Positions 7,360 through 30,935 of a stretch of 64,000 nt of DNA are shown in pieces. The notes under the pieces are model-generated. The model was given only the letters and a program-made list of their open reading frames with translations, did no database searches and was not told where the DNA came from. The DNA lies in assembly GCA_031256445.1 (NCBI GenBank), contig JAIRQN010000018.1, positions 1-64,000 on the forward strand. Direction: 5' to 3'. Numbering within the stretch: position 1 is the first letter of the stretch; each line of letters starts with the position of its first letter. The translations under genes were made by a program, and so were the position numbers. The stretch is from Treponema sp. GTDB lineage: Bacteria > Spirochaetota > Spirochaetia > Treponematales > Breznakiellaceae.

Positions 7360-8385
7360 ATGAAAAGTAGATTGAACAAATTGTTCACAAACAGAGGTTT
7401 CGGAAAAACATACGCATTTATCTGCGTTTTTCTGCTGGCATTTGCCCTGATTCCCGTTTATGGAGCGGATGAACTGGACACGGCTATCCGCGAAGCGGGC
7501 GGCTATTTAAACACGCAAATTCAGGGGAGAAGCAGGATTGCCATTATTAATATTCAATCCGATTCACCTTCGCTCTCAAATTATATAATTGATGAGCTTA
7601 CCGCGAATGTGGTAAACAACAGAATCCTTGCCGTGGTTGAAAAAAAACAGCTGGATTCAGCCCGCGCGGAGCAGAAATTACAGGTTTCTGGTGAGGTTAA
7701 TGACAGGGATGCCATAGCTATCGGCCAGATTTCCGGCGCGCATTCAATCGTAACCGGAAGCGTTACTACGGTTGGCAGCCGCTACCGCCTGACAATCCGC
7801 GCTTTGGATGTTAAAACCTCCAGGGTACAGGTTCAGTACAACAAGAACATTAACTCAAGCCCGGTTATTGCCGCCTTTTTAAAGAAAGATGCGCCCGTAG
7901 CCGCAGCGCCCGCACCTGCTCCGGCTCCCGCACCTGCTCCGGCTCCCGCACCTGTAGCAGCGCCCGCTCCGGCAGCCAGAACATCAAGTCTGCAAAATGG
8001 AGAATATACATTTTGGCCGCGGCTTTTTACAATGCGCGCCGGTATTAAAGCAGATAACATTTTTATTCCGCAAATAACCGTTACAAAGGATTTTGTTGTA
8101 ATTCATCTTTGCAGAAGCGCGGCAGGCGCCTGGAAAGATGATGTATCGGGAAACGGTATCAGCGGATTTTATGATAAACGTAATTTTAGACTGCAGAATC
8201 TTGATAATCCTTCTCAATTTTATGAAGTTGTGAGCGCCCAAAGCACAAATAACGGAATGGGGAGAATTTGGACATTGTCATATAACCGTTTTGACGCGAC
8301 AAGACTCAGCCTTTCATGCAAGCCATACAGCGGTGATGATCCGCCTTACATCTTTGAGGAAATTATATTGGGTAAACCGGATTAA
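7360..8385 (+). CDS. Secreted CsgG/LpoB-like protein with Pro-Ala linker and C-terminal beta domain
   Basis: Signal peptide; 'SRIAIINIQSDSPSLSNYIIDELTANVVNNRILAVVEKKQLDSARAEQKLQVSGEVNDRDAIAIGQISGAHSIVTGSV'; PAPAPAPA linker. Confidence 0.75.
   Translation: MKSRLNKLFTNRGFGKTYAFICVFLLAFALIPVYGADELDTAIREAGGYLNTQIQGRSRIAIINIQSDSPSLSNYIIDELTANVVNNRILAVVEKKQLDSARAEQKLQVSGEVNDRDAIAIGQISGAHSIVTGSVTTVGSRYRLTIRALDVKTSRVQVQYNKNINSSPVIAAFLKKDAPVAAAPAPAPAPAPAPAPAPVAAPAPAARTSSLQNGEYTFWPRLFTMRAGIKADNIFIPQITVTKDFVVIHLCRSAAGAWKDDVSGNGISGFYDKRNFRLQNLDNPSQFYEVVSAQSTNNGMGRIWTLSYNRFDATRLSLSCKPYSGDDPPYIFEEIILGKPD
7909..7954. repeat. 18-bp tandem repeat encoding the Pro-Ala linker
   Basis: cccgcacctgctccggct x2.5. 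Confidence 0.85.
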
Positions 8386-10592: not shown

Positions 10593-12032
10593 ATGAAGAA
10601 AAAGATTTGGATTGCCGCATTGTCATTGGCGGTAATGTGTGCAGCGGCGACGGCCTGCGCGTCAGGCGGCGGAGCAAAAGAGTCTTCTTATTCCGCAGAC
10701 AGTCTGACGCTGGATACGGCGATAACTGAAACCGCTTCGTACTTTGCAGAGCGGATACCCCAGGGCGCGAAGGTGGCTTTGATTCCATTTGACGCGCCAG
10801 CAGGAAAGTTATCGGATTATATTTTCGAGGAATTTTGGAGACGCCTTGAAGATACGCGCAGGTTCGTTATGGTGGATCGCAAAAACCTTGATCGTATTGA
10901 AACGGAAATGAAACATCAATATGACTCCGGCAGGGTGGATGACGATTTAATCATTTCCATGACCAGGCAGTTCGGAGCGGAAATACTCATCCACGGACAG
11001 ATGACTTCGCTTGGCAGTGAATACCGCATGACAGTTTACGCTACCGATGTTGAAAAAGCCGCATCAAGTCAGAGGGCTTTTACCGTCAGGCCGGATAACC
11101 GCCTTTCCTCACTGTTAAATGTATCGGCGGAAGACGAGGTAGAAAGGGCTGTTTCAGTTATGGCCCGGTCTGTTAATCAAAGAACCGTTATCGCTGTGGG
11201 AAGAATAAGTTATGCGGATACCCAAACGGTTACAAGCCTTTCAGCATGGCTGAAGAACGGCATTATCACAGGAGCGCAGAAACAACAGGACAAGTTTCAG
11301 GTGGCGACAGATGACCAGAGCGCCGATTTCGCGGTGGCAAGCCGTGGGCTTACTGTTGAAACGCCGGTCGCGGACAGCGCAATTCAGGCTGTAGTTACCG
11401 GAAACTACTCGCCCCTGGATAACGGCGCGGAAGTATCTTTGCAGTTGGTATCCACAGGCGGGAATAAAACTGTGCTGGCCTCGCAGCGGTTTACCATTCC
11501 CGCTTCGGAACTGGAACGGCGCAGACTCTCTCTTCTTCCCGAAAAAGGCGGCGCTGTTATGAGCAGAGCCGAGTTTGAGACGAAACAGCAGGCTGTTAAT
11601 TCATACGCGGGTAAAAACAACAAGTGGAACTTTACGGTAACCCCGGACGTACTGGACGGCATTTACCGTGACGGGGATTTAATGTCCATGCGGATATTTT
11701 CTGAGCGCGACTGCTACTTCCGCATAATCCATGTCGATGTGAACGGAAACACCCAGATCATTTATCCCGCAGGTTCCGCAGATAATAACTTTATCAGGGC
11801 GGGAGAGACCCGGCGCATTCCGGATAACACAAGGTTCAGAATGGGATCGCCTTTCGGCGAAGAGCTCATTCTGGCTGCGGCTTATGACAGGCCGTTTACC
11901 TCCGGCGCGTCAGGAACTGTGCCGTTAAGTGAAGGATACATCTCCCGCGGACTGACTGTGGAAAGCGATAATAAAACATCGCTGAGCCCGTCGGCAACGG
12001 CTAAATTTAGCTACACTATTCTGGCGAAGTGA
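10593..12032 (+). CDS. CsgG/LpoB-like lipoprotein with DUF4384 domain
   Basis: Lipobox AAATAC; 'AKVALIPFDAPAGKLSDYIFEEFWRRLEDTRRFVMVDRKNLDRI'; C-terminal 'DGIYRDGDLMSMRIFSERDCYFRIIHVDVNGNTQIIYP' is DUF4384-like. Confidence 0.8.
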   Translation: MKKKIWIAALSLAVMCAAATACASGGGAKESSYSADSLTLDTAITETASYFAERIPQGAKVALIPFDAPAGKLSDYIFEEFWRRLEDTRRFVMVDRKNLDRIETEMKHQYDSGRVDDDLIISMTRQFGAEILIHGQMTSLGSEYRMTVYATDVEKAASSQRAFTVRPDNRLSSLLNVSAEDEVERAVSVMARSVNQRTVIAVGRISYADTQTVTSLSAWLKNGIITGAQKQQDKFQVATDDQSADFAVASRGLTVETPVADSAIQAVVTGNYSPLDNGAEVSLQLVSTGGNKTVLASQRFTIPASELERRRLSLLPEKGGAVMSRAEFETKQQAVNSYAGKNNKWNFTVTPDVLDGIYRDGDLMSMRIFSERDCYFRIIHVDVNGNTQIIYPAGSADNNFIRAGETRRIPDNTRFRMGSPFGEELILAAAYDRPFTSGASGTVPLSEGYISRGLTVESDNKTSLSPSATAKFSYTILAK

Positions 12033-12928: not shown

Positions 12929-13306
12929 ATGACAGAACAGCAAATGAATGAAAAATTTATAAAAGGGAAAGGGTTTTATAATGACAAGCAGTATGAAGGA
13001 GCGGTATTAATTTTTATGGAGATTGCGCAGGCCGGATACGCTGACGCGCAATTCATGATGGGCATTTGCTGCGCGGGAGGTCATGGCGCGGAAAAAAGCG
13101 AAGCAGAAGCCGCGCGGTGGTTTGGCAAAGCCGCCGATCAGGGAAGTGCAAACGCGCAGAATGAACTCGGCGTTTTTTACCAGCTTGGCGCGGGCGTGGA
13201 ACAAAATCTGGAAAAAGCGGTTGAGTCTTACAGCATGGCGGCGGAACAGGGACACGCCGAAGCCAAAAATGTTTTAAATGAACTTGAAAAAAGAAAAATT
13301 ATATAG
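12929..13306 (+). CDS. SEL1-repeat protein
   Basis: 'AEAARWFGKAADQGSANAQNELGVFYQLGAGVEQNLEKAVESYSMAAEQGHAEAK'. Confidence 0.85.
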   Translation: MTEQQMNEKFIKGKGFYNDKQYEGAVLIFMEIAQAGYADAQFMMGICCAGGHGAEKSEAEAARWFGKAADQGSANAQNELGVFYQLGAGVEQNLEKAVESYSMAAEQGHAEAKNVLNELEKRKII

Positions 13307-13315
13307 GAGAAATTT

Positions 13316-15508
13316 ATGACCAAAGAAGAATTTGAAACCGAGTACAACAAAATATTCGACAGGGCAATGACGTTTAGCGAAAAAACCCGCCGCGAAGGAC
13401 TGCTTTCCATGGAAGACTCCATAGATGAAGAGAAGCTCTTTCAAAGAGATATAATGGAATTGGGGTTAAGACTTGCCTGCGATGGAACTGATTCCACAAT
13501 AATAGATAATATACTAACCAATATCATCAACCAGGAAAAAGATGAAAATAAAAAGATTTTAAAAACAGTTCAAAAAACCGCCGTGCTGTCCATTCAACAA
13601 GGATATTCACGTGGAATATTCGCGTTGACGTTAAATTCGCATGTAGATGTTTGTTACCGCGGCGCGCTGGATATATATCTTGATATTAATAATTACCCGA
13701 AAGTATCATCCGCTGACGAAATAGATCAGCTGCTCAACGGAGATGAAGATGAATCCGGCTCGGATTCATTTAATAAAGCGTTCGATGAGTATCAAAAAAA
13801 CAATTACGATAAAGCCGTGCCGGAATTTATAAAACTGGCGGAAGCGGGAAATGAAAAGGCGTGTTTTTATCTTGGCATCTGTTATCAGCATAATCTGGGG
13901 TTGGAACAGGATTTCCTCAAAGCCAAAGAGTGGTTCCTGAAGGCGGCGGAACTGGGCAATCTGGAAGGTTATGAAAGAATTGGCCTGTGTTATGAAAACG
14001 GAATTGGCACAGGGAAGGATTATGCCGAAGCGTTCAAGTGGTTTCTCAAGGCCGCCGAACTTGGTCAAAGCGAATCTCAGCGTAAAACCGGCCATTATTA
14101 TGCCGCTGGCAGAACCGTTGAACGGGATATTAACAAAGCGGCAGAGTGGATTCAAAAAGCCGCGGATCAGGGCGACTTTGTCGCGAAAATGGATTTGGAT
14201 AATCTTAAGGAAAATCCTGAAGCCTATACGGGAACGCTCCCCCAGAATGAGATTGATGCTCTGTTATCCGCCGTAGGTTCAAACAGCGGGAAAGACGGAG
14301 AATCGTCACAGGATTCAGATCTGCTGGATTTGGGCGAAGACAATTTTGACCTTGCCGTTAAATATCTGAAAGGAGAAGGCGTAGAGCAGGATTACGCTTT
14401 GGCCGAAAAGTTTTTCCACGAGGATTTGGAAACAAAAAAGGCAACTTTCGGAGAAGATTCTTTTCTGGCAAAAGAATGTTATGTGATTGGCGACCGTTAC
14501 AGAGAGCATGAAGATTACGAAATAGCGATCTCCTGGTATAATGACGCGCTTATGATGTTTAAAAAAATTAATGATGGAAAAAATCAGGATATAACCGATT
14601 CCCTGTGTTTTATCGCCATCTGTCATGAAAAAAAAGGCGATTATATAACGGCGGTTGATTATTATAAAGATACTGTAGCGTCAGATGAAGAAGTCAATGG
14701 AAAAGGAAATCAGAATATCGCTTTATATTTAAACCAGATATCCTTCTGTTATGTGAAATTGGAAGATTACGCGAATGCCCTGAAATACAGCATGATGGCT
14801 CTTGCAATAAGGGAAGAAATCTTTGGAACTGAACATTCGGATACGGCTTTAGTTTATTATAAAATAGCTGAAATTTATTTTATGAAGAATGATTATGAAA
14901 ACGCGCTGATTTTTTATGATAAAGCCTATTTAGCCCATAAAAAATGTAACGGTAAAGATGATATCAGCGCCAATGATTCGCTTTTATGCATCGCTTTTTG
15001 TCATGAGGAAATGGGAGAATACGGAAAAGCGCTTTCCTGCTATAAAGACGCGGTTGTTATATACGAAAGAGCGCTGGGTAAGGATCATCCAAGCACCGCT
15101 GTCGCTTTCTACAGTATTTCCGGCTGTTATTACAACCTGAAAGATTATGAAAAAGCGCTGGAAAGCGATTTGGAAGCTCTCGCCATAAGGGAAAGAATTT
15201 GCGAAGAAGACGCTCCTGAATTATCGCTCTCGTTTAATAACACCGGCACCGATTACCGTTTCCTTGGCAGGTATGAGGAGGCGCTTAAATATCATTTTAA
15301 ATCGCTGGAGTTAAGAAAGAAACACAGCAGGCAAAAAGATACTATCGCTTTCTCGTATAATACAATTGGCAAGGATTACGAAGCGCTGGGCGACAGGGAA
15401 AACGCTGTTAAATATTTTAAAGAGGCGCTTTCTGTTTATGAGTCGCTTGAAGGATTTGAGACCAACGCTGAAGACACAAGACAGGCGATTGCGAGGAATG
15501 AGGAGTAA
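13316..15508 (+). CDS. SEL1/TPR protein with MotA-like N-terminal segment and FliM/FliN-type EIDxLL motifs
   Basis: N-terminus 'EKTRREGLLSMEDSIDEEKLFQRDIMELGLRLACDGTDSTIIDNILTNII...AVLSIQQGYSRGIFALTLNSHVD'; 'ADEIDQLLNGDED'; SEL1 repeats; 'QNEIDALLSAVGS'; kinesin-light-chain-like TPRs. Confidence 0.7.
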   Translation: MTKEEFETEYNKIFDRAMTFSEKTRREGLLSMEDSIDEEKLFQRDIMELGLRLACDGTDSTIIDNILTNIINQEKDENKKILKTVQKTAVLSIQQGYSRGIFALTLNSHVDVCYRGALDIYLDINNYPKVSSADEIDQLLNGDEDESGSDSFNKAFDEYQKNNYDKAVPEFIKLAEAGNEKACFYLGICYQHNLGLEQDFLKAKEWFLKAAELGNLEGYERIGLCYENGIGTGKDYAEAFKWFLKAAELGQSESQRKTGHYYAAGRTVERDINKAAEWIQKAADQGDFVAKMDLDNLKENPEAYTGTLPQNEIDALLSAVGSNSGKDGESSQDSDLLDLGEDNFDLAVKYLKGEGVEQDYALAEKFFHEDLETKKATFGEDSFLAKECYVIGDRYREHEDYEIAISWYNDALMMFKKINDGKNQDITDSLCFIAICHEKKGDYITAVDYYKDTVASDEEVNGKGNQNIALYLNQISFCYVKLEDYANALKYSMMALAIREEIFGTEHSDTALVYYKIAEIYFMKNDYENALIFYDKAYLAHKKCNGKDDISANDSLLCIAFCHEEMGEYGKALSCYKDAVVIYERALGKDHPSTAVAFYSISGCYYNLKDYEKALESDLEALAIRERICEEDAPELSLSFNNTGTDYRFLGRYEEALKYHFKSLELRKKHSRQKDTIAFSYNTIGKDYEALGDRENAVKYFKEALSVYESLEGFETNAEDTRQAIARNEE

Positions 15509-15518
15509 GGAGTGAATT

Positions 15519-17183
15519 ATGGCAGAAGAAGCAGACGCTGACCATGCCGCTGATGGTGAAAATTCCCAGGATTTTTATTCAAGCGATTATCCCCACAAAT
15601 GTTCCAAAGATCAGATAAGATCAATCAGCATATTACATGAAAAATTTGTCCGTTTGGCGGTTAAAAGTCTTTCTGTTAAACTTAACCGCCATGTCAGCAT
15701 GTTTCTCGCCTGCACTGATCAAAATACCCTGGGAGATTTTATCCGCACGCTTCCCAATCCTTCAACAATTGGCATTATCAGCATGGAGCCGCTTAAGGGC
15801 TGCGCTGTAATGGAAATGTATAATTCAATCGCCTTTGACGGAATATTCCCCCTGCTTTTGGAAGATTTACGCAAAACATGGTCGGAAATTATTGACTTGC
15901 GGCCCAAGCTGGAAAAAAAGGAAACAGATCCCCAATCCATAAAAATCGCTCCTCGCCCGGAAGGCGTTGTTCTTTTGGTATTTGAAACAAGGATTGGAGA
16001 CACAGAGGCGATGATAAATTTCGCCATTCCGTATTCTGTCATTAAACAGGTTATTAATGAATTCACTGAAGAAAAAATTAATAAAATTAAAAACGAAGTG
16101 GACGCGCAGGACGCGCAGGAGTACCTGAAAGCCGCGGAAAATGGGGACGCGGAAAAACAAATTAAACTAGCTTTTTGTTATTTGAAAGGCGAAGGCGTGC
16201 AGCAGGATTACGAGAAAGGCATTGAATGGCTGCAAAAAGCCGCGGCTCAGGAGGATGTTGACGCTCAGCATTATCTGGCCATATTTTTCAAACAGGGATC
16301 TTACGTTGAAAGAAATTTGGCAAGAGCTCTTGAATTGTTTTTGAAAGTTTTGGAAAAAAAATTAAAGCAGAATGGAAAGGACAGTTCTGAAACAGCCGGA
16401 ATTTATAATGATATAGGCTCATGTTACAGCGAGCTGGGCGAATTTCAAAAAGCAGTTGAATACTGCAATAACGCGCTTGTTATGAGTAAAAATCTGCTGG
16501 AAGAAGAACTGCCCGAGACAGGTGAAATTTATACGAATTTGGGAATTAATTATTACTGCCTTGGCCAATACGACGCCGCTCTTGAAAATTTCACCAATGG
16601 AAAAAATACAAACGCCATTTCCCTGGGAAAAGAAACTCCCGGCGCGGCAACTTCCTGTTTTTACATTGCCAGCTGTTATGAAGCAAAAGGCGAATTCAAT
16701 AAAGCGCTTTCTTTCTATAATGAAGCGCTTGCCATTTATGAAAAAACATCCGATACGGACAGTTTTGATACAGCCAACACCTGCTACTGCGCGGCTAACT
16801 GCTGCAGGGAAATCAATAATTATGAAAAAGCGAATGAATTTGATTTAAAGGCTTTAAAAATCAGGGTGAAAATCTGTAAAGAAAATGATCCTGTTTTAAC
16901 TGATTCGTACAGCATTATCGGTGTTAATTACCGGAATCTGGGAAATTATGATAACGCTCTTAAATTTCATTTTAAGACTCTGGAGTTAAAGAAAAAATAT
17001 CAAGGCAATAACCCTGAAAATACCGCCTTTACATTAACAAGCATCGGCAGGGATTACGAAGCGCAGGGCGACAGGAAAAACGCGCAAAAATATTTCCAGG
17101 AAGCGCTTGCAATATATCAATCGCTCGATGGATTTGAAAATGACGCAGATGAAACAAAGCAAGCGCTTGAGAGGAACAGTTAA
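15519..17183 (+). CDS. FliM middle-domain-like / SEL1 / TPR fusion protein
   Basis: 'KCSKDQIRSISILHEKFVRLAVKSLSVKLNRHVSMFLACTDQNTLGDFIRTLPNPSTIGIISMEPLKGCAVMEM' and 'TWSEIIDLRPKLEKKETDPQSIKIAPRPEGVVLLVFETRIGDTEAMINFAIPY' are FliM-like; then SEL1 and TPRs. Confidence 0.75.
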   Translation: MAEEADADHAADGENSQDFYSSDYPHKCSKDQIRSISILHEKFVRLAVKSLSVKLNRHVSMFLACTDQNTLGDFIRTLPNPSTIGIISMEPLKGCAVMEMYNSIAFDGIFPLLLEDLRKTWSEIIDLRPKLEKKETDPQSIKIAPRPEGVVLLVFETRIGDTEAMINFAIPYSVIKQVINEFTEEKINKIKNEVDAQDAQEYLKAAENGDAEKQIKLAFCYLKGEGVQQDYEKGIEWLQKAAAQEDVDAQHYLAIFFKQGSYVERNLARALELFLKVLEKKLKQNGKDSSETAGIYNDIGSCYSELGEFQKAVEYCNNALVMSKNLLEEELPETGEIYTNLGINYYCLGQYDAALENFTNGKNTNAISLGKETPGAATSCFYIASCYEAKGEFNKALSFYNEALAIYEKTSDTDSFDTANTCYCAANCCREINNYEKANEFDLKALKIRVKICKENDPVLTDSYSIIGVNYRNLGNYDNALKFHFKTLELKKKYQGNNPENTAFTLTSIGRDYEAQGDRKNAQKYFQEALAIYQSLDGFENDADETKQALERNS

Positions 17184-17207
17184 TAGCGAGTAGTAAGGAG
17201 AGTAATT

Positions 17208-18458
17208 ATGGATTTTGGGTTTCCGACTATTTATTTTTGCCCTTCGTGCGGCAAGAAAATGTTAATGGATAATTATACCAGTTATACCGTCAGTTCAAGC
17301 GAATATTTCTCTGACGGCAGCGTAAAAGAGTCAGGCATTTGCTGCGCGCATTTTACCCCGGATTTGGCAAAATGTCCTCATTGTAAAACGCTTTTTTTCA
17401 GAGGCAACGCAAAATATGAGGAAACATCATTCATAACCAACACAAGTAAAATTAAAGATATCATGGAACCGGGAAGAGACGATCTTATCGATGCTGTTAA
17501 AAACAATATCGCCAAAGACTGGAAAGAAGAAAAAGCGATACGCGGAATGTTATGGTACGATTTTAATATAGATACGCGCAAAGGATATAATATTTTAAGC
17601 GGCGATGAACTGAAAATCTGGCAGGATAATTGCGCCGCTCTGCTGCCGTTGGTAAAAAAAACCCTGAAAGAAATGCAATCAAAGAAAAATAATGAAGATT
17701 ACAGTGATAACGACAGGGAAGAATGTCTTTTTATGATAGCGGAACTTTACCGGAATCTGGGAAAATTTGACAAGTGTATGGAAATTCTTGATGAATTTGG
17801 CGGCAAATGGAGCTGGCTTAAAAAGCAATTTGCGTGGGAATGTAAGGCGAAAAACATTTTTACTTTTGAAGTAATTTCAAAAAATGAAATGAATCTGGAA
17901 AGAGCAAAAGATCAATATGGACAAAATTATTATGACAGGGCAAAATATTTTCTGCCTCCGTACTACGGGCGGAGAAATCTGAAAAAAGTCATCGCGGATT
18001 TTAAGAAGGCTGAAAGTCTGGGCATGAAGGGAATTAATTTTTACCAGGAGAGAGGCGAGTTCTATCTGGAAGAACTTAACGATCCTGACAGCGCAATCGC
18101 CGATTTTACCAAAGCGCTGAAGCAGAAGGACAAAGACGAATGGATGGACAGATACATATCCGTTATTCTCTGTTTACGCAGCAGCGCTTATTTAAAAAAA
18201 GGAAATTTTAAAAAGGCCCTTGCCGACGTACAAACCGCGATTAATGAAGATGCTGAAAATGACAGCCTGTATACCGCGCGCGCTGAAATTCATGAAGCCA
18301 TGGGAAATATTAAAGACGCGCAGAGCGACAGGCGTACGGCTGAAAAAGTAAAACAGAAAAATTTTGAACGTTACGAGAAACAAAAGAAAAAGCTGGAAGC
18401 CATAATAAAAAATTCTGCAAAAAAAATTCGTAAAAGACCCAAAAAAGGCGAAATATGA
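17208..18458 (+). CDS. Zinc-ribbon and TPR-like protein
   Basis: 'FCPSCGKKM...CPHCKTLFFRG'; C-terminal TPR-like 'DSAIADFTKALKQKDKDEWMDRYISVILCLRSSAYLKKGNFKKALADVQTAI'. Confidence 0.65.
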   Translation: MDFGFPTIYFCPSCGKKMLMDNYTSYTVSSSEYFSDGSVKESGICCAHFTPDLAKCPHCKTLFFRGNAKYEETSFITNTSKIKDIMEPGRDDLIDAVKNNIAKDWKEEKAIRGMLWYDFNIDTRKGYNILSGDELKIWQDNCAALLPLVKKTLKEMQSKKNNEDYSDNDREECLFMIAELYRNLGKFDKCMEILDEFGGKWSWLKKQFAWECKAKNIFTFEVISKNEMNLERAKDQYGQNYYDRAKYFLPPYYGRRNLKKVIADFKKAESLGMKGINFYQERGEFYLEELNDPDSAIADFTKALKQKDKDEWMDRYISVILCLRSSAYLKKGNFKKALADVQTAINEDAENDSLYTARAEIHEAMGNIKDAQSDRRTAEKVKQKNFERYEKQKKKLEAIIKNSAKKIRKRPKKGEI

Positions 18459-18847
18459 AAATCGAAAAACTGACATACAGTAACGGCTCTGTTTACGAAG
18501 GAGAAACAGTAAACGAAATACCTCACGGCAAAGGGAAAATGAAATACGCAAATGGCAAGACAGAAAAAGGATACTGGAAAAGAAACGGCGAAAGAAGGAC
18601 AAAAAAAGTTTTTCTGGATTGGGAAAATTATTATGAAATCGCGGAGGCTTTGAACATACTCTATCCGAAAAGGTCGCCTGTGGCGATTTCCGATTCTGAA
18701 TTGATTGAATTGGTTACGGCGCTGCCCGATTTTGACGGAGAGAAGCAGCCTCCGTCAGACATATATTTGTCCTTTATCGCGAACAAATGGATTCTGGTAA
18801 GAGACGGGGGAAGGACATCAACGATTAATGATTCTCCGTTTGTATAA
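18455..18847 (+). CDS. MORN-repeat protein with IscX-like C-terminal domain
   Basis: 'YSNGSVYEGETVNEIPHGKGKMKYANGKTEKGYWKRNGE' (MORN); 'LDWENYYEIAEALNILYPKRSPVAISDSELIELVTALPDFDGEKQPPSDIYLSFIANKW' follows IscX spacing. Confidence 0.65.
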   Translation: MKIEKLTYSNGSVYEGETVNEIPHGKGKMKYANGKTEKGYWKRNGERRTKKVFLDWENYYEIAEALNILYPKRSPVAISDSELIELVTALPDFDGEKQPPSDIYLSFIANKWILVRDGGRTSTINDSPFV

Positions 18848-18858
18848 TCAGGGGTATT

Positions 18859-19035
18859 ATGAAAAAGGTTAAAATTAACTCCGCTTTTAGAATGGGCTGG
18901 GACAGATTGGAATTGCCGCTGGTAAACAGATGTTTTGTTCACAGAGGCACGCACCTAACGGCTTTCAGAGATGGATATTCCCGGACAATACGCGAATTTC
19001 TCGGCAAAGAATACAGCGACAGGAACAAGCAATGA
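18859..19035 (+). CDS. Small hypothetical protein (58 aa)
   Basis: ORF below the 60-aa cutoff: MKKVKINSAFRMGWDRLELPLVNRCFVHRGTHLTAFRDGYSRTIREFLGKEYSDRNKQ; stop overlaps the next ATG (ATGA). Confidence 0.5.
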   Translation: MKKVKINSAFRMGWDRLELPLVNRCFVHRGTHLTAFRDGYSRTIREFLGKEYSDRNKQ

Positions 19036-19553
19036 GCGCGGATCAAACGGAACTGGATAAAAAATTTGATGAAGCAATGGTTCTTAATGATGCTGATCGC
19101 TTTGAAGAAGCGGCGGCAATCTTTAAAGAGCTGGCTGAAAAGGGACACGCGCAGGCGCAGCTTGAGCTTGGCAAGTGTTATGATTACGGTCTTGGCGTAC
19201 AAATGGACAGGGACAAAGCGATAGAATGGTTCGCGAAAGCCGCGGAACAGGGACTTGAACTGGCGCGGAGATGGCACGCGCACTGCGTTAACGAAAAAAT
19301 GGAAAGAGAATCAGAAGACCCAAAGGAATTGATAAAAGCGTATTCATATCAATTTGATATTGTATCTGACGGTATAGAAGCGGAAAAAGAAATCTGTGAA
19401 AAATTAAATCTGATATGCAAAGGTAAAACCAATACCCATGAGCTGGCAAGAAGATGTTACATGCTTGATATTTATTTAATCAGGGAAAAAGAAAGCGATT
19501 ACGATCTCTTTGAAAAAATACATGATATTGCCGAAAAACACGGAGGACATTAG
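19032..19553 (+). CDS. SEL1-repeat protein
   Basis: Start at 19032 (MSADQTELDKKFDEAM); 'AQAQLELGKCYDYGLGVQMDRDKAIEWFAKAAEQG'. Confidence 0.75.
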   Translation: MSADQTELDKKFDEAMVLNDADRFEEAAAIFKELAEKGHAQAQLELGKCYDYGLGVQMDRDKAIEWFAKAAEQGLELARRWHAHCVNEKMERESEDPKELIKAYSYQFDIVSDGIEAEKEICEKLNLICKGKTNTHELARRCYMLDIYLIREKESDYDLFEKIHDIAEKHGGH

Positions 19554-19993
19554 TGGCAAAACTGGAATTTGATGATGTATTCCACATGATAAAAAATATT
19601 ACAGATGCAGAAAAAGAATGTGATACAGGTTTTTGGATAAATACGGACGGAATTTTTCATGACGATGATCCGATGCCCAATGTTTCTGACTTAACCTGCC
19701 ATTGCGGTATTAGTCATTATGAACCAACCGGAGGCTGGATAGTAACGCCCTGGCTTTATACAATGGATTGCCCCGCTGTTTTTAAAACACTCGAAAGCGC
19801 CCGCAAAATGGCGTTTTTCTGGCTTAACTGGATGGGCTATCTTTACGGAGACGGAATAGAAGAGCCGAGATTTGAAGCCGACTGGCTTTCCGTTAAATCA
19901 AACCGCTCTGTAATTATGATGTTATTCGAACAGGAAGCGGAAAAATTCCGTAATGAGTTAAAAGAAGAAGAAGGAATGAGGGAACATGATTAA
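19553..19993 (+). CDS. Uncharacterized protein, paralog of 21161..21598
   Basis: 'GGWIVTPWLYTMDCPAVFKTLESARKMAFFWLNWMGYLYGDGIEEPRFEADWLSVKSNRSVIMMLF' closely matches 21161..21598; GTG start. Confidence 0.6.
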   Translation: MAKLEFDDVFHMIKNITDAEKECDTGFWINTDGIFHDDDPMPNVSDLTCHCGISHYEPTGGWIVTPWLYTMDCPAVFKTLESARKMAFFWLNWMGYLYGDGIEEPRFEADWLSVKSNRSVIMMLFEQEAEKFRNELKEEEGMREHD

Positions 19994-20011
19994 TTTACAG
20001 GCAGTGATGTT

Positions 20012-21142
20012 ATGGAATTAATTTTAACCGAAAAAAACGCTCTGGAAAGAGCAAAACAAAACGGCAGAGCGCTTGACCTTGTTCCTGAAAGGCTAAAAAC
20101 AGAAGAAGTATGTCTTGCGGCTGTAGGACAGTGTACCACCGCGCTTGAATTTGTTCCCGCGGAATTCCAAACAGAAGAATTTTTAATAAAAGCGGTAAGT
20201 CAAAACCGGTGGATGCTCAGAGCTATTCCTATAAAACAAATTACACCCGAAATATGCAATGCGGCTGTTAAGCACAGCAGTTATGCGCTTGAATATGTTC
20301 CTAAAGAATTCAAAACAGCGAAAATGTGTTACGCGGCGGTTAAATCAAACGGGCAGGCGTTATGTGATGTTCCCGATGAACTTAAGACCGCGCAAATGTG
20401 TTTAATGGCAGTAAAGAGTAAAAACTTTGGAGGCAATTGTCTTCAATGGGTTCCTGATAAATTTAAAACAGAGGAAATGTGTCAGATTGCGGTAAAAAAA
20501 GACGGTGAAGCGCTTGAACATGTTCCTAAAAAATTTATAACAAAAGAACTGTGCTTTGCGGCGATAAATTCCGGATATGTCGGCTTTGACAGTGTTCCTG
20601 CGCTCAAGTTTGTTCCCAAAAAGTTTAGAACTTATGACCTGTATCTCGCATTGATGAAGGTACGCGGCTATGCTCTTAAATGGGTTCCTGCTAAATTTAT
20701 TACAGAGGAGCTATGTCTTACTGCAGTTAGAGAATGCAATAACGCAATTGAGTTTATTCCCAAAAAAGCATGGACAAAGGAATTATGTTTTACCGCGCTT
20801 AAAGAAAGCAAATATGCGCTTTCTTACATTCCTGATGAACACAAAACAGCCGAAATCTGTTTTATTGCGGTTGAGCAATTTGCTTATATGCTTGCGTATG
20901 TTCCCGAAAAATTAAAAACAATTGAATTATGCTGTATGGCTGTAGAAAATTTCGGCAGAGCGCTTCAATTTGTTCCTGAAAAATTAAAAACATTGGAACT
21001 CTGCCAGCTTGCCGTAGATAATGATTTTCACGATGAGAATTACGACGGGGACGGCTATGATTATGACGGCGGCGAAGTGATTAAATATATTCCCGATGAA
21101 TTGAGGGCTCAGATTAAATATGATTCAGAGGATGAGGGATGA
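20012..21142 (+). CDS. DUF4116-repeat protein
   Basis: About 11 copies of a ~28-aa unit like 'TAKMCYAAVKSNGQALCDVPDELK'. Confidence 0.8.
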   Translation: MELILTEKNALERAKQNGRALDLVPERLKTEEVCLAAVGQCTTALEFVPAEFQTEEFLIKAVSQNRWMLRAIPIKQITPEICNAAVKHSSYALEYVPKEFKTAKMCYAAVKSNGQALCDVPDELKTAQMCLMAVKSKNFGGNCLQWVPDKFKTEEMCQIAVKKDGEALEHVPKKFITKELCFAAINSGYVGFDSVPALKFVPKKFRTYDLYLALMKVRGYALKWVPAKFITEELCLTAVRECNNAIEFIPKKAWTKELCFTALKESKYALSYIPDEHKTAEICFIAVEQFAYMLAYVPEKLKTIELCCMAVENFGRALQFVPEKLKTLELCQLAVDNDFHDENYDGDGYDYDGGEVIKYIPDELRAQIKYDSEDEG

Positions 21143-21160
21143 TAACAAGGAGTAAAAATA

Positions 21161-21598
21161 ATGAACTACGATGAAGTAACGAGTATAATCAGCAATATAA
21201 TAAACATAAAAGAGGATTATGAAGTATTCTTTTGGGTTGGAACAGATGGCATATTCCATAATACAGAGAATCCAAATCCAAGAGATGAGTTAATATGCTG
21301 CTGCGGCATTTCCTATTCAACAGAAACCGGCGATTGGATAGTAACACCCTGGCTATATAATATTGATATTCCGGGTGTATATAAGTCTGCGCATAACGCA
21401 AGGGCAATGGCTTTTTTCTGGCTGAACTGGATGAGTAATCTTTACGGTGATGAAACAGAAGAACCGGTTTTTGAAGCTGACTGGCTCTCCGTAAAATCAA
21501 ATCGTTCTGTGGTAATGATGCTGTTTGACATGGAAGCCAGAAAATTTAAAGATGAATTGTATAAAAATGAAGAAGAAGATGATTTATGCAGACAGTAA
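21161..21598 (+). CDS. Uncharacterized protein, paralog of 19553..19993
   Basis: 'GDWIVTPWLYNIDIPGVYKSAHNARAMAFFWLNWMSNLYGDETEEPVFEADWLSVKSNRSVVMMLF'. Confidence 0.6.
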   Translation: MNYDEVTSIISNIINIKEDYEVFFWVGTDGIFHNTENPNPRDELICCCGISYSTETGDWIVTPWLYNIDIPGVYKSAHNARAMAFFWLNWMSNLYGDETEEPVFEADWLSVKSNRSVVMMLFDMEARKFKDELYKNEEEDDLCRQ

Positions 21599-21613
21599 AA
21601 TTAAAGAAGATTA

Positions 21614-21736
21614 ACCACGAACGTTCACGAACTTGCGATTCGACATCTGGGAGTTCGTGCTGGTTAGTGTGGTTTGTGGTAAAATTCTTCCCTGCGATCT
21701 TCGCGCCTCTGCCTGCCTGTCCTGCCTGTCGGCAGA
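21614..21736. repeat. Intergenic palindromic repeat cluster
   Basis: ACCACGAACGTTCACGAACT...AGTTCGTG...GTGTGGTTTGTGGT (21614-21680), then TCTGCC...GGCAGA (21708-21736) with internal CCTGCCTGT repeats. Confidence 0.65.
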
Positions 21737-21764
21737 CAAGTGAGAGGTCTTTTGAATATAAGGA

Positions 21765-23117
21765 GTGAAGAAAGTTATGAATGAGACAAAAATCGCGAAA
21801 AAATTAAATTCATTTTTCTGCTGGTTATGCGTAAAAGGAATACGAAAACAATTTTGCATTGTCTGCGATTATACACTGGAACATATCAACAGATTGACTG
21901 CGGCTATGAATGCCGGAGGCGCTGCCGAGCAGTTTGAAATGGGGCTGTGTTATTATCTTGGAGACGGCGTTGATCAGGATTATGACGCGGCTTTTCTGTG
22001 GTTCTCGAAAGCGGCGGAACAAAACTACGCGAAGGCGCAGCTTTATTTAGGGGAATGTTACGACTCAGGTTACGGCGTTGAACAGGATCGCAAGCAGGCG
22101 GGGCGGTTGTTTTTAAAAGCGGCACAGCAGGGTTTGGCGGAAGCGCAATTCAGGGTAACAAGCTGCTTTATGGGAACTTTTAACGGCTTTGAATATAATC
22201 CTGAACAATATAAGTATTGGAAAGATAAAGCCGCCGAACAGGGATACGGCTCAAAGGAGTACCAGAGAGACTGCGATAAAGAGCGAGCTATAGAAAACGC
22301 CGCGCGGTGGAGACGCAACGAAAAAGAATTAAAAAGGTTAAACCTTAATACAATTGAAGATTTGGAAAACCTCCTTAAACCTATCGTAAAGCACGCGACA
22401 AAATTAATTATTAAAAGACAGGAGACAGAACCACAGGACAGTTATCTGCGTTCCCATTTTCGCGGGCAGCCGTATTTTGAAAAAGGCGAAAAGTGGCCTT
22501 CATTGAAAGAAGGAGATCAATTCGATTTTATTTTTCAAATTTTCAATACCGGGGACATCAATCTTCCTTTCAATATAAAACTTTTGCAATTCTATTATGA
22601 TTATGAAAATTCCCCGATTTCATACCGGACATATACAGATGATTATGTCTGCCTCGGTTATAAATACGGGAACGGCTGGCTTGTGAAAGCTTATGAAAAA
22701 TTGGATATTGCAAACAGTTTTACTATGGATAAACCGGACTGGTGCTGCACGGATCTTTACTGTGAATTTGAATGTAAAGCAATAAAATCTTTGCCTTGTT
22801 GGAAATATTCAAATGAATGTAATGAAACCGTAGAAATGTTTTGCGAAAAACTTGATGGCGAGAGTAAAGATAAAAACTTTGACAGTTATAATTTTGTTGC
22901 GGAAAAACTTGGCTGCGAACAGGATTTTATAACTAAACTGGGCGGATATCCCAATTGGCTTCAGGGGGACGGCTCGCCAAAAAATAAAGATTTTCAGTTG
23001 TTGTTTCAGCTTGATTCGGAAGACGAAGCGGGACTGCATTGGGTAGATGTTGGATTGGTATATGTCTTTTATAATCCCAAAACCAAAAAATTTATTTTTG
23101 AAATTCAATATTGCTGA
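21765..23117 (+). CDS. SEL1-repeat protein with DUF1963 (YwqG-like) domain
   Basis: SEL1 'FEMGLCYYLGDGVDQDYDAAFLWFSKAAEQ'; DUF1963-like 'RSHFRGQPYFEKGEKWPSLKEGDQFDFIFQIFNTGD' and 'KLGGYPNWLQGDGSP...FQLLFQLDSE'. Start may be 21777. Confidence 0.75.
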   Translation: MKKVMNETKIAKKLNSFFCWLCVKGIRKQFCIVCDYTLEHINRLTAAMNAGGAAEQFEMGLCYYLGDGVDQDYDAAFLWFSKAAEQNYAKAQLYLGECYDSGYGVEQDRKQAGRLFLKAAQQGLAEAQFRVTSCFMGTFNGFEYNPEQYKYWKDKAAEQGYGSKEYQRDCDKERAIENAARWRRNEKELKRLNLNTIEDLENLLKPIVKHATKLIIKRQETEPQDSYLRSHFRGQPYFEKGEKWPSLKEGDQFDFIFQIFNTGDINLPFNIKLLQFYYDYENSPISYRTYTDDYVCLGYKYGNGWLVKAYEKLDIANSFTMDKPDWCCTDLYCEFECKAIKSLPCWKYSNECNETVEMFCEKLDGESKDKNFDSYNFVAEKLGCEQDFITKLGGYPNWLQGDGSPKNKDFQLLFQLDSEDEAGLHWVDVGLVYVFYNPKTKKFIFEIQYC

Positions 23118-23143
23118 TAAAAGAAATAATTATGGAGGAAACG

Positions 23144-25546
23144 ATGAGTAACGAAAAAATCACAGACCCGCAGGAGCAGGTAGCCGAAGGCGACCGTTTT
23201 TACAACGGCGATGGAGTCGAAAAAGATTTTGAACAGGCTGTCGCATGGTATAAAAAAGCGGCGGAGCAGGGTTACGCGCAAGGGCAGTACTACCTTGGCT
23301 ATTGTTACCATGAAGGGGAGGGCGTTGAACAGGATTACGCGCAGGCTGCGGCATTGTATTCAAAAGCGGCGCAGCAGGGAAACGCGGCTGCGCAGCAAAA
23401 ATTTGGTTTTTGCCATTATGCGGGCGAAGGCGTGGATCAGGATTTTGAGAAAGCTTTTTATTGGTATACACAATCGGCACAGCAGGGCAGGGCATACGCG
23501 CAGTATCTTCTGGGCGCGTGTTATTACAACGGGGAAGGCGTAGAGAAGGATTTTTCCCAGGCTGTGCATTGGTTCACAAAAGCCGCCGATCAAAACGATG
23601 ACACGGCGCAGTGTATGCTGGGACTGTGTTTTTACTTCGGCTCAGGCGCGGATATGGATTACAAAAAGGCTGCATATTGGCTGGAAAAATCCGCGCAGCA
23701 GGGTAATTCGGACGCGCAATTCTACCTTGGAGACTGTTATCTGCAGGGAGAAGGCGTCGAAGAAGACCACGCGAAAGCGGCTTACTGGTACGAAAAATCC
23801 GCGCAGCAGGATCACAAGGTTGCGCAATTTAAACTGGCATACCGTTACCTGGAAGGCGACGGCGTTGGCTGTGATACGGAGAAGGCAGTTTATTGGTACA
23901 CGAAATCGGCTGAACAGGGTTATGATCGCGCTCAATACAGCCTGGGAGTTTACTATAATGACGGCGAGAGCGCAGAACAGGATAAGGAAAAAGCCGTCTA
24001 TTGGTTTACGAAAGCGGCGCAGCAGGGCTATGCGGATTCCTGTGTGGAACTGGCTATAATGTACCTGAAAGGAAAAGGCGTAGAAAATGATATAGAAAAA
24101 GGCATTTATTGGTTCAGGGAAGCCGCGAAATCCGGAGAGCCGGGACCAATGCTGAATTTCGGGCAATGGTTGTTAAGCGAAGCCAACGGAGCGCAGGATG
24201 ACATAATCGAAGGACTCCAGTGGATAGAAAAAGCAGCGGACGGGAATGAACATAACGAGGATGAAATATTATGGCAGGCAAGGTGGGTGTTAGCCGAAAT
24301 ATACGAGTATGGTTTTTTCCGGATAACCAAAGATTTGGAAAAAGCGAAACGTTTCTACGAGTTGCTGGTTGAAAACGGAGACAATACCGCCGATGTTTAT
24401 TTTAAACTATTGTCTAATGGAAAAGAGGATGCCAACAGTTCACGGGGCTGGAGCGATAAAAACCTTATTGTAAAAGTTCTATCGGAAAGTTTCCCGGATT
24501 TTGACGTATCAGGCGCGTTATACGAAAAAGCGCCGGATTATTCTGATGCGGTCTTTACAGACGCGCAAAGGGAAGAGTGTCTGCCCATCGCGGAAAAAAT
24601 GCTGGAGCTGGCAGATATTGCAAAACGCGAAAGTATTTTGGCGTTCGCCGGGATAGCGGAAAAAGAAGAAGACGTTTATTTAAAAACGGCTTTAAAAATC
24701 GCGGCGGACGGCATACGGGCGGATCTGTTTACGCAACTAATGGTTATCCTTTTTATTAAAGACAGGCCCTCAGGCGCGGCTCTGCTTAAAAGACTGATTG
24801 TTCTCCACGGAATTTTCGCAATAATAAAAGGCGATTTTACAGTATTAAAATTAAAAGTGCTGATAGGATCGTTATACGTTCCGAAGATTCTGGCTCCCAA
24901 AAACGCTGAACGCAGGTATAAAATGACATTTAACTATTTGCTGACGCACCGTGAAATACCCAGGCAGTATTTCGCGGATTTAAACACATTCTATGATAAG
25001 GTATTGCCGGACCCGGAAATGATGCAGAGATTTTTAACTTTCGCGCATGGCAGATGCGTTTATTTCGCCAATGAAAATCCTGACATTGAGCCGCCGTTCG
25101 AGGCTGAGACATTTGACATGGTATTGTTCGGCGAAAAAGAAAGGCGCGTGCTTGTTATAACATTGCCCAAATGCGATACCCCGCCGGAAAGTTATCAGAT
25201 AGCGATTCCCATATTAAGACAAAATGCGGGATACTATACCTGCGAACTGTCTGTCGATCCTTTGACTGACATACCCTGTTTCATATTCGGCGAATGGAAC
25301 GCTGAACAGAAACACTCAAATTACGGAAAGATAGAAATGAAAAGCGAAAACAGTTTTGCAAAAATGGCGGTGGAAATCGCTTACGGGAAAATTCTTAAAG
25401 AGCCGCCTTTTGAACGTAATAACATGAAATTTGATACTCCCACGCTGGAATTGTACTGCGAAAAATGCGGAACCAACAACTTTTTTTATGAAGATAATGA
25501 TCCGCCGTTTCATTGCGACAACTGCGGCACGGCGCTGCAGGAGTAA
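23144..25546 (+). CDS. Multi-SEL1 protein with MotA-like segment and C-terminal zinc ribbon
   Basis: RBS ggagg before ATG 23144; about nine SEL1 repeats; 'IAKRESILAFAGIAEKEEDVYLKTALKIAADGIRADLFTQLM...LHGIFAIIKGDFTVLKLKVLIGSL'; 'YCEKCGTNNFFYEDNDPPFHCDNCGTALQE'. Confidence 0.75.
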   Translation: MSNEKITDPQEQVAEGDRFYNGDGVEKDFEQAVAWYKKAAEQGYAQGQYYLGYCYHEGEGVEQDYAQAAALYSKAAQQGNAAAQQKFGFCHYAGEGVDQDFEKAFYWYTQSAQQGRAYAQYLLGACYYNGEGVEKDFSQAVHWFTKAADQNDDTAQCMLGLCFYFGSGADMDYKKAAYWLEKSAQQGNSDAQFYLGDCYLQGEGVEEDHAKAAYWYEKSAQQDHKVAQFKLAYRYLEGDGVGCDTEKAVYWYTKSAEQGYDRAQYSLGVYYNDGESAEQDKEKAVYWFTKAAQQGYADSCVELAIMYLKGKGVENDIEKGIYWFREAAKSGEPGPMLNFGQWLLSEANGAQDDIIEGLQWIEKAADGNEHNEDEILWQARWVLAEIYEYGFFRITKDLEKAKRFYELLVENGDNTADVYFKLLSNGKEDANSSRGWSDKNLIVKVLSESFPDFDVSGALYEKAPDYSDAVFTDAQREECLPIAEKMLELADIAKRESILAFAGIAEKEEDVYLKTALKIAADGIRADLFTQLMVILFIKDRPSGAALLKRLIVLHGIFAIIKGDFTVLKLKVLIGSLYVPKILAPKNAERRYKMTFNYLLTHREIPRQYFADLNTFYDKVLPDPEMMQRFLTFAHGRCVYFANENPDIEPPFEAETFDMVLFGEKERRVLVITLPKCDTPPESYQIAIPILRQNAGYYTCELSVDPLTDIPCFIFGEWNAEQKHSNYGKIEMKSENSFAKMAVEIAYGKILKEPPFERNNMKFDTPTLELYCEKCGTNNFFYEDNDPPFHCDNCGTALQE

Positions 25547-25549
25547 ATT

Positions 25550-28500
25550 ATGTTATATGATTTTAAAGAAAACAGGCAAATACGCATTTTCATCTCTTCG
25601 ACATTCAGGGACATGATGCAGGAGCGGGATTATCTTATAACAAGAGTTTTCCCGGAGCTGCGCCGTTACTGCGATGAGCGTGACATCAGTCTCTTCGAGC
25701 TTGACCTGCGATGGGGCGTAACGCAGGAAGAGTCGGAAAACCAGATGGCGTTTAAAATATGCCTTAACGAAGTGGACAACACAAGGCCGTTTTTTATCGG
25801 GCTTCTGGGAGAGCGTTACGGCTGGGTTCCGGATGAAGAGACGCAGAATAAAATGAAATTGACAAAAGTATTTGATGAGTACGAGTGGCTTCCTGGCGAA
25901 CTAAAAAAGAAAAAAAGCATTACAGAAACCGAGATTCAGGAAGGCGCGTTTTTGCCGGAAGACGAAATAAACGCGTATTTTTATTTGCGCTCCCCAAAGA
26001 TGGATACGCCGCAGGAGTTCAGGGAAGATAAGGGCAGCCATGGCGAAAAAATGCTTTTGGAGCTGAAAGACAGAATCAGAAAAGATAAAAGATACGCGGT
26101 AAAGGATTATGACGGCGTTGAGCATCTGGGGAATATGATAGAAAAAGATTTTAAAGCGATTGTAGATAAACTTTTTCCCGGGCAGGGGCATCTTTCCGGT
26201 TTTGAAAAAGAACGGCTTCAGCAATATATATTTTTAAAGAGCAAAACCAGAGCGTATGTTACCCGCCATGAATGGATGGAATATCTTGATAAATTCGCGG
26301 ACGGCGGTGAAAGAGCTGCGGCTGTTACAGGCGAAAGCGGGATTGGAAAATGCGCTCTTCTTGCAAACTGGATCGCGGACAGGCAGAAAAAGCAAATACC
26401 AAACGAAAAAATCATTTATCATTTTACCGGCGTGTCCCAAAGCGAAGGCGATTATCAGAAAATCACCCGGCGTTTTATGGATGAAGTGCGCTCGCTTTAT
26501 AATTTTCCTGTAAAAGAAGAAAACGCGCTGAAGATAGATATGGTTGCCAATAAAAAAAATGAGACAGAAGATGATGAAGACGACCCTGAATTTGAATTGC
26601 AGGAACTGTTATTCGCCATACCTGAAGATCAAAAATTGATAATCGTTCTTGACAGCCTTGACAGCCTTGATGATACAGATAACGCGAAAATGCTTAACTG
26701 GCTGCCTGCTCACCCTGGCAATGTAAAATTTATTTTTTCGGCCGTATCGGGCGATAAAACCATTGAGGCTCTGGAGCGCAGAACAGGCAATATTCTTGAG
26801 CTTGACTCTCTGCCTGAAAAGTCAAGAAGAGGGTTAATTGTAAAATATTTTGAGAAGTTCAGCAAGAAACTGAGCGCCGCGCAGATGGAAAGGATAATAT
26901 CTGACAAGAAGAGCGAAAACCCTGCCGTGCTGACCGCCATACTGGATAATTTGCGCATATTCGGCAATTTTGACATTTTTGACAAACAGATAGAAGAACG
27001 CCTTTCCTGCCATAGCGGCGAGAGCCTGTTTGATCTGTTCCTGCAAAATATTGAATCGGTTTTTAATGAAGCCGGTGCAACAGCGGGCAGTTCGCGTAAA
27101 AGCGCGGTAAAAGATATTCTTTCTCTTCTGGCGCTCTCGCGGCGCGGGCTTACAGAAACAGAAATAGTGAATATTTCCAAAGTTCCCAAATTGTACTGGT
27201 CGCAGCTTTCCAACTGCATGTCAGCGCATTTAAAAACAATTAACGGATTTGTCACTTTTTCCGGCGGTTTAATGTTAAACGCGGTGAAAAACCGTTATCT
27301 GAAAGACAGCGGAGCGCGGCGGGCTTGCCGCCTGTCAATTTCCGCTTATATGGAGTCGGGCGAAGAAGTTTCGTTTAACAGAAAATGCGGGGAGCTTCCT
27401 TTCCAGCTCATGGAATTGAAGGATTATGACAGGCTTTACGGTTTTCTTCTTGACAAAAAGGCGTTTGATCATATTTACGCGAAGGACAAGTATGAACTTG
27501 GCGGTTACTGGAGAGCCCTGCGGGAACATGACATGAAACGCTATAAAATGGAAAAATACCTGGAACTTGACATTAAAGACAAGGAAGAATTGACGGACTT
27601 TTTGGAAAATATTTCCTCGTTTATTAACAACATAATAATTGATCCTTCTTTGGCTCTTGTGTTTGCGCAAAAACATCTTGAAGTATGCGAAGAATATTTT
27701 GGAAAAGACAGCGCAAAAACGGCTGTTTCATATATCAAAATTGGCAGCTGTTACGGAAGCAATAGCTTAAGGGATTATAACAAAGCGCTTGAATATTTCA
27801 TTAACGCCGGGGAAATTTATAAAAAAGTAAACGGTAAGGATCATTATACCGCAGCGACTGTTTATTGTAACATCGGTTCATGTTATGGCAATCCTTCCAT
27901 AGGTAAATATGATGAAGCGGTTGAATATTATACCGATGCCCTTGATATAATAAAGAAAGAATTCGGAGAGGATGAAAATTCCCTTACAGCCGTAATTTAC
28001 GGCAATATAGGCCAATGTTATATCAATAACAGCAAGCCTGCGGATGCCGTTGAATACTGTTACAATGCCCTTAAATTATGCGAAACTTTTTACGGAAGGG
28101 AACATCCTAAAACCGCTCAATCATATTATGTTATGGGAGAACTAATGTATAATCTGCAGCAATTCGCGGAAGCTGTTCAATTCCTTAATACTTTCTTAAA
28201 TATCTGGATAAATTTCTTCGGAGAAGAACATCTTAAAATCGCTGAAACCTATAATAATATCGGTTTTTGTTATATGGGCCTTAAAGAAAATGAAAAAGCG
28301 GTTGAAGCCAGCGGCAAAGCGATAAAATTATTCATGAAAATTGACGGAGAAAATACTGATAGGGCGGCCAGCGCGTATTTCAACGCCGGTATGTGCTTTC
28401 ATTCGTCAGAAGACTACGGCAAAGCGGTTGAAAATTTTGGCAAGTATATCAGCATAGTCGTCAAGAATCCCGGCACAGACCCTTTCAGAATCGCGTATGC

Positions 28501-28783
28501 CAAATCGAAATCCGCCGCCTGTTATTATGAGCTGGGCGAGTATGAAAAAGCGCTTCCATATTACAATGACGCGCTTGCGGCATATATGAAAAAATACGGC
28601 GGGAAACACCTACAGGTTGGAATTATGTACGATGACATGGCTGTATGTTATGATGAACTTGAAGATTATGATAACGCGCTAAGCTGTTACAAAAAGGCGA
28701 TATCTGTTTACGAATTGTACGATGATACTGAGGATTTAATTGAAGGCGCGAAGGATTCAATCGAAAGGATTGGTTCGTCATAA
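25550..28783 (+). CDS. DUF4062-STAND/NACHT-type ATPase-TPR protein
   Basis: 'IRIFISSTFRDMMQERDYLITRVFPELRRYCDERDISLFELDLRWGVTQEES' (DUF4062); Walker A 'GESGIGKCALL'; Walker B 'LIIVLDSLDSLDD'; C-terminal TPRs. Confidence 0.85.
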   Translation: MLYDFKENRQIRIFISSTFRDMMQERDYLITRVFPELRRYCDERDISLFELDLRWGVTQEESENQMAFKICLNEVDNTRPFFIGLLGERYGWVPDEETQNKMKLTKVFDEYEWLPGELKKKKSITETEIQEGAFLPEDEINAYFYLRSPKMDTPQEFREDKGSHGEKMLLELKDRIRKDKRYAVKDYDGVEHLGNMIEKDFKAIVDKLFPGQGHLSGFEKERLQQYIFLKSKTRAYVTRHEWMEYLDKFADGGERAAAVTGESGIGKCALLANWIADRQKKQIPNEKIIYHFTGVSQSEGDYQKITRRFMDEVRSLYNFPVKEENALKIDMVANKKNETEDDEDDPEFELQELLFAIPEDQKLIIVLDSLDSLDDTDNAKMLNWLPAHPGNVKFIFSAVSGDKTIEALERRTGNILELDSLPEKSRRGLIVKYFEKFSKKLSAAQMERIISDKKSENPAVLTAILDNLRIFGNFDIFDKQIEERLSCHSGESLFDLFLQNIESVFNEAGATAGSSRKSAVKDILSLLALSRRGLTETEIVNISKVPKLYWSQLSNCMSAHLKTINGFVTFSGGLMLNAVKNRYLKDSGARRACRLSISAYMESGEEVSFNRKCGELPFQLMELKDYDRLYGFLLDKKAFDHIYAKDKYELGGYWRALREHDMKRYKMEKYLELDIKDKEELTDFLENISSFINNIIIDPSLALVFAQKHLEVCEEYFGKDSAKTAVSYIKIGSCYGSNSLRDYNKALEYFINAGEIYKKVNGKDHYTAATVYCNIGSCYGNPSIGKYDEAVEYYTDALDIIKKEFGEDENSLTAVIYGNIGQCYINNSKPADAVEYCYNALKLCETFYGREHPKTAQSYYVMGELMYNLQQFAEAVQFLNTFLNIWINFFGEEHLKIAETYNNIGFCYMGLKENEKAVEASGKAIKLFMKIDGENTDRAASAYFNAGMCFHSSEDYGKAVENFGKYISIVVKNPGTDPFRIAYAKSKSAACYYELGEYEKALPYYNDALAAYMKKYGGKHLQVGIMYDDMAVCYDELEDYDNALSCYKKAISVYELYDDTEDLIEGAKDSIERIGSS

Positions 28784-28825
28784 AAACCGTCCAGTTCAGT
28801 AAATTTATTATTTATGGAGGATAAC

Positions 28826-30562: not shown

Positions 30563-30571
30563 GAGGAAAAG

Positions 30572-30928: not shown

Positions 30929-30935
30929 GAAAAAA

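Follow-up and report, generated by a model that had tools for sequence, protein, structure and literature searches.

Gene content of the locus

The window analysed here is a stretch of 64,000 nucleotides from a Treponema sp. contig (JAIRQN010000018.1). Two adjacent genes in it, P730 and P554, encode pieces of flagellar motor proteins joined to SEL1 and TPR repeats (Table 1). The upstream P730 reading frame ends ten nucleotides before P554, and an AAGGAG site lies 5' of the P554 start. Judging from the spacing, the small SEL1 gene before this unit is probably co-transcribed with it, and the Cys-rich TPR gene that follows is probably part of the same transcript. The initial annotation stated that no flagellar operon is present in the window. 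No standard operon was found among the scanned window proteins, but P730, next to P554, bears MotA and FliM-N pieces. No FliG_C gene was found at the window locus.

Table 1. Features of the P730/P554 locus, in window coordinates.
Feature	Position	Strand	Basis
Small SEL1 protein	12929..13306	+	Pfam; 65% identical to L083 9091-9900 (G018 locus)
P730, soluble MotA + two EIDxLL + SEL1 + TPR (730 aa)	13316..15508	+	ORF, Pfam, NCBIfam, structure model
solMotA, MotA TM2-TM3 cytoplasmic loop joined to C-terminal tail, TM3-TM4 excised	13316..13651	+	NCBIfam, profile-profile, two-piece matches
EIDQLL, FliM-N-like CheY-docking motif (residues 135-140)	13718..13735	+	Motif as in PMC9126983
P730 SEL1 repeats	13760..14230	+	Pfam; structure model
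EIDALL, FliY/FliN-N-like CheY-docking motif (residues 312-317)	14249..14266	+	Motif search; shuffle test
P730 TPR array	14342..15502	+	Pfam; 56% identity to separate G018 TPR gene
P554, FliM middle domain + SEL1 + TPR (ATG start, 554 aa)	15519..17183	+	ORF, Pfam, AlphaFold2, Foldseek
FliM middle domain of P554 without GGxG loop (residues 24-187)	15588..16079	+	PF02154; alignment with standalone truncated FliMs
P554 internal deletion site, ~30 profile positions (residues 106-112)	15834..15854	+	PF02154 coverage; alignment
P554 repeats, SEL1 then TPR	16098..17177	+	Pfam; helices 184-553 in AlphaFold2 model
TPR protein, Cys-rich N-terminus	17208..18458	+	Pfam; AAGGAG 5' of start
MORN-like + IscX-like (Fe-S_assembly) protein	18455..18847	+	73% identical to L083 7668-8465; kept in syntenic locus

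The surrounding region (12929-32099) is packed with genes for repeat proteins (SEL1, TPR, DUF4116, DUF1963+SEL1), including a DUF4062-AAA-TPR protein that resembles the STAND/NLR type (25550-28783), and is flanked by GH94 phosphorylase-type genes (949-3447 and 45842-48235). CsgG-like proteins are encoded at 7360-8385, 10593-12032 and 35614-36747; homologues of the first two adjoin a truncated FliM in a genus relative (G028, L048).

P554 carries a shortened FliM middle domain

The initial annotation read the P554 N-terminus as a FliM middle domain and staked this on a PF02154 match and an AlphaFold overlay; both agreed with it. PF02154 matched in two stretches (E=3.3e-33, 115.7 bits; Pfam cut-off 27 bits), and the NCBIfam model fliM_switch (TIGR01397) matched with E=5.8e-33 and 114 bits, far under its 219.6-bit cut-off for full-length FliM. 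The closest solved structures by sequence were FliM middle domains (4fq0, 4gc8 and 5x0z, E ~1e-21). In the AlphaFold2 model (mean pLDDT 88.4), the N-terminal part had the FliM/CheC-like fold: Foldseek matched it to 4gc8_B (E=7.9e-11, TM 0.81 on the target) and overlaid the model on 5x0z_E at 1.3 Å and on 4fq0_A at 1.5 Å.

The suggestion that the core is internally shortened also held. The match covers PF02154 positions 5-88 and 119-190, so that about 30 profile positions (between 88 and 119) are absent where FDGIFPLL abuts LEDLRKTW. This gap takes out the GGxG loop and the beginning of the next helix, and it is also present in a relative (G018, L047). A motif search of both proteins found GGxG in neither P554 nor P730. 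As had likewise been proposed, the C-terminal FliN-like domain is replaced by repeats: Pfam gave no SpoA match (PF01052) in P554 and placed SEL1 (E=1e-13) and TPR_12 (E=3.6e-42) there instead, and Foldseek matched this part to TPR superhelices. The N-terminal EIDxLL CheY-binding peptide is not present in P554. P554 is a FliM middle domain minus the GGxG loop, the CheY peptide and the FliN-like C-terminus, fused to SEL1/TPR repeats. FliM uses GGxG, with EHPQ, to contact FliG_M (PMC4642947). Because the shortening takes out this FliM_M-FliG_M contact region, binding of FliG by P554 in the manner of FliM, which had been envisaged, is less likely.

P730 combines soluble MotA with two CheY-docking motifs

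The companion P730 was overlooked in the initial annotation, as were the genome-wide family of motor fragments, including FliG C-domains, and the unfused genes in a close relative. The first 112 residues of P730, searched as that segment alone, matched the NCBIfam MotA model (E=3.5e-9); no Pfam model recognised this domain (solMotA). Profile-profile alignment with ordinary MotA by hhalign gave P=99.5% and E=2e-22 with one large gap. When ordinary-length MotAs were searched with a solMotA HMM, 67 were matched in two pieces lying 57-89 residues apart (median 71), whereas 46 distinct soluble domains were each matched as a single continuous piece. By these alignments, the domain is therefore the cytoplasmic TM2-TM3 loop of MotA fused straight to the C-terminal tail, with TM3-TM4 (~71 residues) excised. 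The four transmembrane helices of MotA were not found: hydrophobic 19-residue windows scoring above 1.6 numbered zero in P730 versus 14 in MotA. Foldseek matches of the P730 model were dominated by its TPR part. Chance similarity was rejected on the E-values and the fold.

R90 and E98 (numbered on an E. coli MotA reference stretch) are charged residues that face FliG. The equivalents of both are kept in the window copy. Of the 46 soluble domains, 33 keep the R90 equivalent and 31 that of E98, and 20 are without the pair of an arginine at R90 and an acidic residue at E98.

CheY-P docks on FliM and FliY through the sequence EIDxLL (PMC9126983). None of 20,000 shuffles of P730 gave the two copies that this protein contains, and the motif occurs in tandem at the N-terminus of standalone truncated FliMs. 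Both observations would fit proteins that chiefly titrate CheY-P through EIDxLL and the FliM middle domain, itself a second CheY-P contact (PMC9126983), with the MotA part merely structural. We consider this improbable, since in most of the examined soluble MotA proteins the linkage is to FliG_C and not to CheY-docking motifs, and the MotA interface residues are often kept.

Motor fragments recur in the same genome and in relatives

The host genome (2.79 Mb, 97.7% complete) also encodes an ordinary motor with FliM/FliN, MotA/MotB and two FliGs. Beyond the window copy, it contains eight solMotA domains in five genes: two domains in one MORN-bearing protein (contig C1), one next to a gene for FliG_C on its own (C107), and the other five, together with FliG middle and FliG_C domains, in three genes on C47 (L042, 6722-10714), the densest motor-fragment locus of this genome. 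A second tail-less FliM, in which RHGRTG replaces GGxG, is encoded on C23. Among all the soluble MotA proteins collected, fusions are to leucine-rich (L089 753-2210), SEL1+ankyrin (L092 4226-6868) or MORN repeats (L043 788-1687).

Relatives were sampled as 40 genomes of the genus and 200 of the family. A first contig profile search with the FliM part of P554 alone returned no relative. Among the 40 genus genomes, two (G018 and G028) encode standalone truncated FliMs, and three (G016, G018 and G021) have a second FliG-FliM gene pair. These pairs (L050 4663-7274, L051 4481-7059 and L052 5587-7878) have long FliM copies of ~425 aa, the one in L050 retaining its SpoA domain, and possibly form a second switch complex. 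The truncated FliMs form one clade (98/96), in which the window copy is sister to the G018 gene (100/97).

Across the 200 family genomes, the solMotA profile separated ordinary MotA (50-58 bits, positions ~11-90, ORFs of ~262 aa) from a soluble class (70-175 bits, most of the model, ORFs of other sizes). The soluble class was present in 25 genomes from eight genera, with the window's genus accounting for 13 of these genomes, and the majority of family genomes were without it. A contig search with a closer subset of the solMotA alignment returned mainly ordinary MotA and three soluble loci; the named soluble loci are those of Treponema sp. Cyl330_bin39, Treponema sp. Co333_bin15 and Spirochaetia bacterium PG1894_110, and an insect-gut origin of these records is our guess from their names. 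A single clade of soluble domains is compatible with the data (p-AU 0.951); two long-branch members fell among ordinary MotAs in a quick tree, but the likelihood improved when all soluble rows were constrained to group.

FliG_C lay in the same protein as solMotA or at most 60 nt away in 15 of 31 solMotA loci. A 245-aa solMotA-FliG_C fusion occurs in three genomes of a distant spirochaete family. Many FliG_C partners, including solo genes, retain most of the torque-helix charges. Four solo FliG_C proteins (L044 6231-6722, L084 6016-6564, L088 1785-2309 and L102 5780-6928) have in common an N-terminal stretch of ~65 residues (VVxTVxG...YCxxINxLxL...) that has no Pfam match and seemingly occurs twice in L102. 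One complete genome (G183, L104 602-3685 and 5046-8129) encodes a pair of similar proteins, each of 1027 aa and starting with a soluble MotA domain.

That the partners are co-encoded or fused, with 4-nt overlaps in several gene pairs, raises the possibility that the fragments act among themselves: solMotA and solo FliG_C (in the window, the FliM domain and EIDxLL) would form a self-contained soluble complex, a signalling or scaffolding handshake off the flagellum. Such a complex would also suit the FliM piece, which without GGxG and SpoA has lost its known C-ring attachment, and the interchange of scaffolds among SEL1, TPR, MORN, LRR and ankyrin. Against it, many copies retain residues used against the real motor, and the EIDxLL motifs point toward CheY. 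We hold this explanation to be possible but not the best one, although nearly as likely as the decoy or adaptor reading discussed below.

Origin of the fusions and selection on the fragments

At the counterpart locus of G018, the gene order is solMotA (149 aa, 69% identical), TPR (408 aa, 56% identity with the tail of P730), MORN/IscX-like (73%) and SEL1 (65%); the truncated FliM of G018 (51% identical) lies on a separate contig and has no repeats. An assembly artefact was rejected on this matching locus. As the genes are separate in G018, P730 looks like a fusion of solMotA and TPR genes with a SEL1 insert that brought in the EIDxLL motifs. P554, by its sequence, looks like a truncated FliM joined to SEL1/TPR repeats. 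For both proteins we infer fusion rather than fission. The evolutionary path is thus visible in a close relative that still carries the FliM and MotA pieces as unfused genes.

An alternative is that the fragments are functionless copies of motor genes, decaying or neutral, that were drawn into recombination between repeat genes. Repeat families do crowd around the locus, some domains are strongly diverged, and in two relatives an in-frame stop lies inside the matched stretch. Pairwise dN/dS, however, was 0.17/1.32 (solMotA), 0.41/1.78 (FliM), 0.08/0.49 (C1 gene) and 0.12/0.65 (FliG_C), with the larger dS values near saturation; across the tested pairs the ratio was ~0.13-0.28. Selection on the motor-fragment genes is purifying, and dN/dS led us to reject a pseudogene reading. 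A single clade common to many genomes, confident folds and conserved gene pairs likewise speak against functionless duplicates, which we regard as very improbable.

Discussion

P554 has the middle-domain sequence and fold of FliM (PF02154 + FliMN_C). It differs from FliM in being without the GGxG loop, SpoA domain and CheY peptide and in its SEL1/TPR fusion, and a complete FliM is encoded separately in the genome. The soluble MotA forms share with MotA the cytoplasmic loop and C-tail, including the charged FliG-facing residues; unlike MotA, they are without any membrane helix, hence without an ion channel or MotB contact, and are fused to FliG_C, SEL1/TPR, MORN, LRR or ankyrin. Because P554 departs from FliM in three features and P730 from MotA in its membrane features, we file neither protein as FliM or MotA. 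Solo FliG_C genes (PF01706), found in relatives and elsewhere in the genome outside the window, keep most of the torque-helix charges but are without FliG_N, the MS-ring anchor, and are co-encoded with solMotA.

The known motor contacts are those of MotA with FliG_C through charged residues, of FliM_N with CheY-P and of FliM_M with FliG_M (PMC7693769). Interfaces that are retained while anchoring is lost suggest decoys or adaptors, and our preferred, still tentative, reading is that P730 and P554 act as such in the cytoplasm at the rotor-stator/C-ring interface, in a brake- or clutch-like way. Excised motor binding surfaces (the FliG-facing face of MotA, the CheY-P-catching FliM/FliY peptides and the FliM middle domain) would be mounted on SEL1/TPR scaffolds. 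solMotA would occupy FliG_C in competition with the real stators, the EIDxLL motifs would recruit CheY-P and so tie the proteins to CheY signalling, and the repeats may bind a controlling partner protein.

This decoy or adaptor reading is supported by the solMotA and FliM homology, the FliM fold and the excision of TM3-TM4, by retention of R90/E98 and by the solMotA-FliG_C linkage that recurs as a fusion in another family. The ordinary motor in the same genome, on which such proteins could act, purifying selection, the two CheY-docking motifs and the precedent of brakes on MotA/FliG such as YcgR support it as well. It is weakened by the 20 of 46 soluble domains without the R90/E98 pair, by the missing GGxG of P554, by a window locus without FliG_C and by the absence of the soluble class from most family genomes.

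YcgR, a brake, acts on MotA and FliG (PMC10140304). The proposed effect of P730 and P554, cytoplasmic action on MotA/FliG, is shared with YcgR/EpsE brakes and clutches (PMC10140304, PMC3000366), but the proteins are non-homologous, and Pfam matched no PilZ or glycosyltransferase domain in the window proteins. The spirochaete collar proteins of the FlcA/FlbB type are also TPR proteins of spirochaete motility (PMC8609358, PMC11750108). The collar differs in being a structure of the periplasmic flagellum, and we know of no FliM or MotA piece in it.

We know of no described kind of soluble protein made of membrane-excised stator and rotor fragments, and therefore rate the motor-fragment family as apparently a categorically new kind, built from folds already known and with a putative function. 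The open-access literature gave, as a weak negative, no descriptions of FliM-Sel1, FliM paralogs, termite-Treponema MotA/FliG or TPR-FliM/MotA proteins. More broadly, spirochaetes may have a soluble shadow motor, which we propose with some reserve: TM-less MotA, solo FliG_C, tail-less FliM and CheY-docking peptides would bind one another, the real motor or both, as a regulatory layer on interchangeable repeats.

Motor parts without membrane helices and ring-forming domains, whose contact surfaces are under selection, amount to a natural isolated stator-rotor interface. Binding to the motor would make them brakes or adaptors of a class derived from the motor's own components; binding among themselves alone would mean that a torque interface has been turned into a signalling handshake. 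Either way, with small soluble FliG_C-solMotA pairs, membrane-free study of the stator-rotor contact might be possible. In gut-type Treponema, soluble pieces of FliM, MotA and FliG on helical repeats probably regulate or mimic the motor from the cytoplasm.
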